From contig NZ_WPCC01000006.1 in assembly GCF_009741925.1 (NCBI RefSeq), forward strand, positions 1 to 64,000: a stretch of DNA of 64,000 nucleotides, given 5' to 3'. Source of the DNA: Natronomonas sp. CBA1123. GTDB lineage: Archaea > Halobacteriota > Halobacteria > Halobacteriales > Haloarculaceae. Under the pieces are notes generated by a model. The model saw nothing but the letters and a program-made list of their open reading frames with translations. It had not been told where the DNA came from and did not search any database. Below, in pieces: positions 33,250 through 35,348 of the stretch. The translations under genes and the position numbers were made by a program. Numbering within the stretch: the first letter of the stretch is position 1; each line of letters begins with the position of its first letter.

Positions 33250-33510
33250 TCAGTTCGCCCCGGTGTCGTCGACCCCCTGGCTGGGGGTCGGGTCGGCCAC
33301 GATGAACTGCAGGAGGACGCTCACGACGAGGTAGCCGACGGCACCCATCAGTACGGCGAGCGCAATTTCGTCGGCGACTTCGAGGGTCAGGTTCGTGTAC
33401 GGGTAGCCGTCGGTCTCCAGTCGGGCGACGTACACCATCGGGAATAGCGACAGTGGGATGGCCAACACGGCAGTACAACGTCGAATCGTCCGTTGGAGGG
33501 AATCGGACAT
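33250..33510 (-). CDS. Two-helix membrane protein, 86 aa
   Basis: An 86-residue protein with two hydrophobic segments (about residues 13-32 and 50-75) and a short hydrophilic tail. It begins MSDSLQRTIRRC. I see no recognisable motif. The ATG at 33510 is preferred over an in-frame GTG at 33537. It lies between the four-helix protein and the salactin-like gene. Confidence 0.6.
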   Translation of the reverse strand: MSDSLQRTIRRCTAVLAIPLSLFPMVYVARLETDGYPYTNLTLEVADEIALAVLMGAVGYLVVSVLLQFIVADPTPSQGVDDTGAN

Positions 33511-33563: not shown

Positions 33564-34613
33564 TCAGCCCTGATGTAAGAGGAGTTGTTCGGCGATGCGC
33601 TGGGCGCCCTCGGCGGCGGCGAGGTCAGGTCGGTCGGCAGCGGTCGCCTCCACGTCACGCTGGAGCTCCTCGCTCAGTCGGCGCTGGAACTCCTCGACGA
33701 GACCCGGAATGCAGGCCATCCCGCCGGTGAGGACGATGCGCTCATCCAAGGCGAGTTGGTACACTTTCATGTAGTCGTTGGCCAACTCCGGCAGGAAGTC
33801 GTTGGCGACGGCTTCGACGACTTCGTCGAGGTACTCGTCGACGGCGTCCATCACGCTGTCCTCGATGGTGAACTCGTGGGCGCCGCCGCCGGGCTGTTGG
33901 ATGACGTCGGTGAACGGCTCGAAGTTCTCGAAGTCGGCGTGGTCCTCCTTGTACTCGCGAGCGGTCGTGATGTCGACTTTCACGCGGCCCTGTGTCTCCT
34001 CTTCGACGTAGGCGACGATGCGGCGGTCGACCTCGTTGCCGGTGACGCCGCCGGTCGCGAACGGCGCGAGCTGCTCGCCACGACGGTAGGCGCAGGCTTC
34101 GAGGTTCGTCGACCCGAGATTGATAGACAGGAAGATGCTGTCGACGGCGTCGAGGCCGTCGAATGCGGGGACGGCACCGCACAGCGACTCTGGGTAGGCC
34201 CGTACCAGCGACTCGCCGACCGACGACGATTCGATGACCGATTCGAGGTTGGCGATACCTTCCTCGTTGTCGATGGTCGGGACGGCGTAGACGACGCCGC
34301 TCTCGGCTGGGACGCCGTTGGCTTCCATGAACGCCTCGAAGAACGTGGCGGCGTCCTCGGCGTTGTCGTCGTCCTCGGGCAGCCCCGACCGGAGCATGTA
34401 CCGGACGCGGTCGGGGTACTCGACGGCGGCTTCTTCGCCGTAGAGGACCCGCTCCTCGCCGGTGAGCGCGTCCTCGTAGGTTGCGAGACACGTCAGCGTG
34501 CGTTCGAGGTCGTCGGGCGTCGAGACGACGGTTCGGGTACTGCCGAGTTTCACGCCCACCGGGGTCTCCGAGGGCAGGTCGGCGTCGGTGCTGGACTGGG
34601 AATCACTACTCAT
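33564..34613 (-). CDS. Actin-fold ATPase, salactin type
   Basis: A 349-residue actin/MreB/Hsp70-fold protein. Phosphate 1 is near GVKLGSTRTVV, phosphate 2 is IFLSINLGSTNLEACAYRRG, and the adenosine motif is ERIVLTGGMACIPGLVEEF. Length and layout match haloarchaeal salactin, a dynamically unstable actin homologue described from Halobacterium. A polymerising cytoskeletal role is therefore likely but inferred. A TATA-like ATTTATAC about 30 nt upstream gives it its own promoter. A FlaD/E-domain gene lies immediately upstream on the same strand. Confidence 0.8.
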   Translation of the reverse strand: MSSDSQSSTDADLPSETPVGVKLGSTRTVVSTPDDLERTLTCLATYEDALTGEERVLYGEEAAVEYPDRVRYMLRSGLPEDDDNAEDAATFFEAFMEANGVPAESGVVYAVPTIDNEEGIANLESVIESSSVGESLVRAYPESLCGAVPAFDGLDAVDSIFLSINLGSTNLEACAYRRGEQLAPFATGGVTGNEVDRRIVAYVEEETQGRVKVDITTAREYKEDHADFENFEPFTDVIQQPGGGAHEFTIEDSVMDAVDEYLDEVVEAVANDFLPELANDYMKVYQLALDERIVLTGGMACIPGLVEEFQRRLSEELQRDVEATAADRPDLAAAEGAQRIAEQLLLHQG

Positions 34614-34638
34614 GACACCCACTCACACCCCGACTATC

Positions 34639-34646
34639 GTATAAAT
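34639..34646 (-). promoter_or_regulatory. TATA-like box for the salactin-type gene
   Basis: Read leftward it is ATTTATAC, centred about 30 nt before the ATG at 34613, leaving a leader of only a few bases. Confidence 0.55.
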
Positions 34647-34697
34647 CCGCGGTGGTTCAGCGTTCGATACGTGGGCCGAAACGCAATCTGAAGGCCG

Positions 34698-35183
34698 CTA
34701 CCGTTCGTTCAGCGCGGCGAGGCGGGCGACGTACAACAGCGACAGTTGGTGGTCCGATGCCGACAATTCGGCGTCGGTGTCGTCGCAGGCATCGTCGACG
34801 GCGTCGACGTGGGACCGGACCGACGACGCCGCGGGGTCGGCAAGCCACTCCTGTTGTTCGTAAAATGACAGTGCCTCGCGGGCGCCGGGTCGGCCGGCCT
34901 TCCGAACGAGGAAGTCCACCCAGTCGAGTACCGTCGTCGTCCCGACGTAGGTCCGCGGGAGTCGACGCAGATACGGTGGGTCAGGGTCACCTGCGAGTTC
35001 GAGCTCGCGGGCGAGCAACTCGCGGTACCGGGCCTCGTCGCGGTGTTCGTCGCCGCGAATACGGGGTGGCAGCCCCCGTCGGCGGCCGGCGGTTTCCGAC
35101 CGAACAGACTCCAGGGCACCGCCTCGCTCGTGGACACCGGCGGCGTGCCGAAGCTCAGAGAGGTCGTACGCCGAGGGGTTCAT
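34698..35183 (-). CDS. FlaD/FlaE-domain protein (archaellum-like)
   Basis: A 161-residue protein. The central part (YLRRLPRTYVGTTTVLDWVD, FLVRKAGRPGAREALSFYEQ, then QEWLA) matches the FlaD/E domain of archaellum accessory proteins, which in haloarchaea sit at the cytoplasmic base of the motor and link it to chemotaxis signals. It is not within an archaellum cluster. It lies 84 bp upstream of the salactin-type actin gene on the same strand. A TATA-like GTTTAAG at 35207-35213 is 27 nt before the ATG. Confidence 0.75.
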   Translation of the reverse strand: MNPSAYDLSELRHAAGVHERGGALESVRSETAGRRRGLPPRIRGDEHRDEARYRELLARELELAGDPDPPYLRRLPRTYVGTTTVLDWVDFLVRKAGRPGAREALSFYEQQEWLADPAASSVRSHVDAVDDACDDTDAELSASDHQLSLLYVARLAALNER

Positions 35184-35225
35184 ACCCCGAACTTCGTACT
35201 GTGTGACTTAAACGCTCGCAGCGAT

Positions 35226-35348
35226 TCAGAGGACGAACAGCGCGAGTTGATACAGGAATCCGAGAACGAACGCGGCCACGAGAACGGCTGACGAGGCCAC
35301 GACGACGGGCGACAGTTGCTGTTCTTCCTCGACGATGTAGTCGGTCAT
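35226..35348 (-). CDS. Small single-pass membrane protein, 40 aa
   Basis: A 40-residue protein: MTDYIVEEEQQLSPV and then one hydrophobic helix (VVASSAVLVAAFVLGFLYQL) to the end. A TATA-like CTTTTT about 27 nt upstream of the ATG at 35348 supports it. It is the first of three same-strand genes ending with the salactin-type actin. Its function is unknown; a membrane anchor is one possibility. Confidence 0.6.
   Translation of the reverse strand: MTDYIVEEEQQLSPVVVASSAVLVAAFVLGFLYQLALFVL

Follow-up and report, generated by a model that had tools for sequence, protein, structure and literature searches.

Why the gene for a protein with a FlaD/E domain should stand directly beside the gene for an actin is the question raised by this locus of Natronomonas sp. 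CBA1123, which lies in a stretch of 64,000 nucleotides, here called the window. The initial annotation described three genes on one strand, for a 40-aa single-helix protein, a FlaD/E-domain protein and an actin-fold ATPase of salactin length; all three are real and lie on the minus strand (Table 1). By curated family models the actin is a salactin, as it reaches 575 bits against the NCBIfam 'salactin' equivalog NF053533, over the curated threshold of 400, and 590 bits (E 1.6e-177, cut-off 27.1) against Pfam Salactin PF25229, and it is thereby the same actin as salactin VNG_0153C of H. salinarum. It is 63–72% identical to most other aligned haloarchaeal salactins. Foldseek matched the actin part to Mbl, MreB and MamK with probability 1.00 and a TM-score to the target of up to 0.80, and among solved relatives by sequence salactin gave one weak match, to BeeR. 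Volactin, another haloarchaeal actin with dynamic filaments (PMC10869688), differs from the window salactin in family and role, and its family (PF25216) was ruled out for the window actin at 14 bits against a cut-off of 35. The 86-aa protein on the other side of salactin has no Pfam or NCBIfam match, is unique to the window locus among all fetched loci and is not conserved.

Table 1. Features of the salactin locus, in window coordinates
Feature	Position	Strand	Remark
86-aa membrane protein gene	33250..33510	(-)	Downstream of salactin; probably outside the unit
Salactin gene, 349 aa	33564..34613	(-)	Pfam PF25229 590 bits, NCBIfam NF053533 575 bits
Salactin start codon	ATG at 34613		In-frame GTG at 34622 is a possible alternative
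arlD-type gene, 161 aa	34698..35183	(-)	Directly upstream of salactin, 84-nt gap
FlaD/E (Arch_fla_DE) domain, helical	34716..34979	(-)	PF04659, residues 69-156
N-terminal motif MNPSAYDLSELRH (consensus NPxxYDxxELR)	35145..35183	(-)	Candidate docking motif
40-aa single-helix membrane peptide gene	35226..35348	(-)	Genus-level salactin neighbour

The FlaD/E domain of the middle gene was confirmed in full (PF04659, 72.3 bits, cut-off 21), but the protein is ArlD-like and not an unrelated FlaD/E protein as its first description left possible. The A1 model scores 155 bits on it and spans nearly its whole length. FlaD/E proteins that neighbour salactin have a common layout, with an N-terminal M..NPxxYDxxELR, a variable linker and the FlaD/E domain at the C-terminus, and motif residues P3, Y6 and R12 are invariant among 21 ArlDs; the motif was not found in the ArlCE or the FlaJ-linked FlaD of the window genome. 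In Halobacteriaceae a protein with the same motif is encoded directly upstream of arlCE, arlF, arlG, arlH, arlI and arlJ, with salactin standing elsewhere, and this protein is ArlD. Its N-terminal motif reads MTLNPREYDPEELR, compared with MNPSAYDLSELR in the window protein, and the lengths are also alike. A tree of the FlaD/E domain (~100 residues) is weak with long branches, and in it the window protein groups with an ArlCE at 89/89; because such a tree is too weak for orthology, the assignment is carried by motif, length and synteny, on which the window protein is ArlD-type. Like the haloarchaeal ArlD (FlaD) of ArlCDE, it combines the motif, a disordered linker and the FlaD/E domain. Unlike ArlD genes of arl clusters, its gene is on another contig (C41) than the archaellum cluster (C18), which holds the other two of the three PF04659 proteins of the genome, namely ArlCE and the cluster's own FlaJ-linked FlaD; hence we call it ArlD-type and assert no motor role for it in this strain. 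An AT-rich stretch, read from the sequence, lies upstream of each window gene and could be its own promoter, thus co-transcription in the window is only a possibility.

The gene order, which the earlier reading had proposed to compare across Halobacteria, turned out to be kept across several haloarchaeal families. Salactin is present in 72 of 145 genomes sampled over the class, with the H. volcanii positive control over the salactin-family cut-off, and 74 salactin genes were fetched with their flanks. In 56 of these the gene directly upstream on the same strand encodes FlaD/E (53 listed, and the long-linker cases L062, L069 and L071, counted by gene gaps); a FlaD/E gene adjoins salactin in another orientation at two further loci (L066, L087), two salactins (L055) are inside an arl operon, and no FlaD/E is nearby at 14 loci. 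Of 36 near-genus representatives, 30 have FlaD/E at a distance of up to 6 kb from salactin and 27 have it directly upstream (23 by the cut-off and four long-linker cases); with a single gene caller, FlaD/E is present in this 6-kb neighbourhood in 22 of 34, whereas every other family is limited to 5 or fewer of the 34. The pair was found in Haloarcula, Halorubrum, Haloferax, Halorientalis, Halorhabdus, Halobaculum, Haloplanus, Halobellus, Halohasta, Halocatena and one Natrinema. At most Halorubrum loci the arlD stop and salactin start overlap as ATGA, which implies translational coupling there; outside the Halorubrum overlap the gap is mostly 10–200 nt. In contrast to the window and most other haloarchaea, where the partner gene is adjacent, salactin and arlD are apart in Halobacterium and the Halobacteriaceae. 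The published account of salactin describes its synteny as poor and gives no partner (PMC10746226), probably because its authors looked in and near Halobacterium, the family with the genes apart; the link was thus missed through the family of the model organism, and none of the open-access papers searched was found to join ArlD and salactin.

The genes are also tied to the archaellum and chemotaxis genes. In a sample of 391 genomes with a completeness of 90% or more, 180 of the 300 with arlH have salactin, compared with 10 of the 91 without it (Fisher p 1.6e-17, relatedness ignored). The first 145 genomes, in which none of 32 archaellum-less genomes has salactin or ArlD, had suggested a strict limitation of salactin to archaellated genomes, which the ten exceptions overturned; usually, salactin and ArlD are both lost along with the archaellum. 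Haloferax larsenii has cheY, cheC, cheD (as read from the sequences), arlD and salactin in this order, with arlCE, arlG and arlH on the same stretch, and salactin follows arlD in all six Haloferax genomes read, including H. larsenii, H. mucosum and H. elongans. In H. volcanii the unit 'ArlD/HVO_1202' rises with other arl and che units in a csmR mutant, according to a 2026 study whose text names HVO_1202 without identification (PMC13286277). From the gene order in six Haloferax genomes and the salactin-family match in H. volcanii, we infer that HVO_1202 is a salactin homologue and that this unit would be the same pair as that of the window. In G117 (L055) and at L244, two salactins are inside a duplicated arl operon. 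Hence the first description of the pair as outside any archaellum cluster is right for the window genome, but does not extend to Haloferax, where the pair is in the che/arl region, or to these two genomes. The arlH of the window genome is 60–62% identical to that of many f3-family genomes compared with 50–52% to its own genus, and the arlH of this genome and that of G110 are like those of another type of archaellum; the arlD–salactin pair is nonetheless retained in both.

We then consider the genomes in which the motor is gone. In seven of the ten genomes with salactin and without arlH (G150, G198, G290, G301, G344, G364 and G397), the sole FlaD/E protein is directly upstream of a salactin, which indicates that the pair outlives the motor. 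Archaellin is absent in six of the seven, and G301 has only one, with two stop codons. Among the other exceptions, G341 has the pair and a second FlaD/E protein, G275 is a fragmented assembly, and in G381 the best salactin match is a broken remnant. The seven or eight motor-less genomes with the pair represent at least three separate lineages, and the NPxxYDxxELR-type motif is kept or doubled in the archaellum-less genomes that carry the pair. Three of them are Actinoarchaeum halophilum (G198), Halocatena marina (G290) and Halocatena pleomorpha (G344), members of a clade in which, reportedly, the archaellum was lost and one MreB-like family was expanded (PMC10067837); this family is probably salactin, of which 2–4 copies are present there.

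What is known of the two proteins comes from other strains. Salactin of H. salinarum, the only species for which this is known, shows dynamic instability, with filaments that extend from foci at the poles and then shorten again; cells without it have a disturbed distribution of DNA at low phosphate and low ploidy, and its deletion leaves motility unchanged (PMC10746226). ArlD is part of ArlCDE, a complex that connects the archaellum to chemotaxis and is tied to the polar cap (PMC8978795, PMC2666748); ArlCE binds ArlD (PMC8978795), and ArlD-GFP of H. volcanii forms polar foci (PMC11588486). Binding of ArlD to ArlCE and CheF, its polar localisation and the need for it in swimming are taken from the literature on H. 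volcanii and H. salinarum. In the simplest model that joins the conserved pair, a polar ArlD and polar growth of salactin, the actin is held or nucleated at the pole by ArlD. ArlD would then be a protein with two partners, forming with ArlCE and ArlH the polar cytoplasmic switch or base of the archaellum, and also binding salactin, most likely through a flexible N-terminal NPxxYDxxELR arm. The pole-proximal end of the filaments would be fixed or nucleated by ArlD, and the outcome would be a pole-anchored dynamic actin for DNA partition or for the placing of polar structures.

The steps of this model differ in strength. A functional link between ArlD and salactin is highly probable. The window locus is an arlD–salactin gene pair; to the model built on it as a whole we give even weight, and the same balance holds for direct binding of the two proteins. 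A role of ArlD as the polar anchor or nucleator of salactin is plausible at somewhat worse than even chances. More tentatively still, ArlD may be an adaptor that serves both the rotary motor, at the archaellum base, and a dynamic actin. Its N-terminal arm would hold salactin at the pole or nucleate it there, and in the swimming-less hyphal Halocatena and Actinoarchaeum ArlD would survive purely as the partner of the actin, with a doubled arm and several actins. The link from actin filament to a polar platform that the initial annotation proposed is therefore well grounded by the conserved order across haloarchaeal families, with binding itself a conjecture from it, while the membrane peptide falls outside the conserved module. 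AlphaFold2 predicted a helical FlaD/E domain for ArlD alone, with pLDDT mostly >90 and an N-terminal arm at 68/63, and in a read-through ArlD–salactin fusion the arm rose to 83/80 (pTM 0.69); the difference is weak and the alignments differ between the two runs, thus it is a mere hint of docking. Motif-bearing ArlDs are also present in the salactin-less genomes G003, G012 and G024, so the motif cannot serve salactin alone. The unchanged motility of the H. salinarum salactin deletion (PMC10746226), the separation of the two genes in Halobacterium and the usual loss of both along with the archaellum also speak against the model. Salactin was the first archaeal actin whose dynamics were described in living cells, and had no known partner; the conserved and often coupled gene pair offers a known polar protein as a concrete candidate for the factor by which the filament is held or started at the pole. 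Because Haloferax strains with an arlD deletion and with ArlD-GFP exist, the question is directly testable there.

Other explanations make different use of the same observations. Salactin may be an accessory of the archaellum and chemotaxis regulon, for example for placing or inheriting polar archaella or arrays, which stands beside arlD for shared expression without direct binding. The strong co-occurrence of salactin with arlH, the position in the che/arl region of Haloferax, the two genomes with salactin inside the arl operon and the rise of ArlD/HVO_1202 with other arl and che units in the csmR mutant (PMC13286277) all agree with this. However, an accessory of the motor would hardly be expected in seven arlH-less genomes that keep the pair with FlaD/E down to a single gene beside salactin, or in the window genome and G110, which keep it despite a different archaellum type, and motility of the H. 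salinarum salactin deletion is unchanged (PMC10746226). We regard this explanation as rather unlikely, and it is the best placed of the alternatives. Least of all do we favour a historical accident, in which an ancestral pair of neighbours was kept by drift with no functional link. Most sampled genomes come from a few families of one order and the pair is broken at 14 of the 74 class-wide loci, as drift would allow, but the much lower recurrence of other neighbour families (at most 5 of 34 representatives), the overlap of the arlD and salactin genes, the selective retention once the archaellum is lost and the salactins inside arl operons make an accident very improbable.

ParM and ParR form a two-gene arrangement of an actin and its adaptor, and the window likewise pairs an actin with a dedicated partner gene, as do the MamK and MreB systems; the fold of salactin is closest to MreB, Mbl and MamK. 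Salactin could accordingly be a ParM-like motor of chromosome partition, with the FlaD/E protein as the adaptor between filament and DNA and the motor role of ArlD as a second use. This layout, the dynamic instability of salactin and the disturbed DNA distribution without it at low phosphate (PMC10746226) fit such a system. The partner, however, is a FlaD/E protein of the archaellum base, whereas the partners in ParM/ParR and MreB systems are a DNA-binding adaptor or a RodZ-type membrane protein. Moreover, the FlaD/E protein is predicted to be all-helical, a fold search with ArlD alone against the PDB gave no confident match, no solved relative was found by sequence, and Pfam detected the FlaD/E domain only and no DNA-binding domain. 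Since ArlD is also known as a polar motor-base protein, we consider partition of the ParMRC type improbable, and prefer ArlD as a polar partner of salactin.

Several further loci show how the genes are arranged. The arl operon of L055 and L244 has arlH and arlCE duplicated and two salactin genes interleaved, with the order arlCE, F, G, salactin, arlCE, H, salactin, arlCE, H, I, J in L055. In Haloferax (L060, L096–L099), a second short FlaD/E paralogue lies ~4–5 kb from the arlD–salactin pair. The archaellum cluster of the window genome (L107, G000:C18:64000-83999) looks foreign and ends in a 185-aa FlaJ-linked FlaD. ArlD-like proteins of Halocatena and Actinoarchaeum (L271–L275) have two DPxxYxxxELR-type motifs with a long disordered stretch between them. 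In G381 (L279) remnants of archaellum genes lie within a few kb of the broken salactin remnant, with pair and motor decaying together.

The 40-aa ORF has one predicted membrane helix, as first described, and relatives of equal length and 55% identity occur in G099 and G150, two genomes of the same genus. There they directly precede a second salactin copy, at loci that share the gene neighbourhood of the window locus but lack arlD. Nucleotide changes between the ORF and its relatives are mostly at third codon positions, and judged from these alignments the gene is real and genus-level (Natronomonas-type). As a third conserved member of the module the peptide was rejected, because no ORF resembling it was found upstream of arlD in other loci. 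At L073 and L174 the genus has a further salactin locus, where the 40-aa peptide is directly upstream and arlD is absent. The window salactin is closest to the L073 and L174 copies (78–83%), which indicates that arlD was either inserted in the window locus or lost from theirs.
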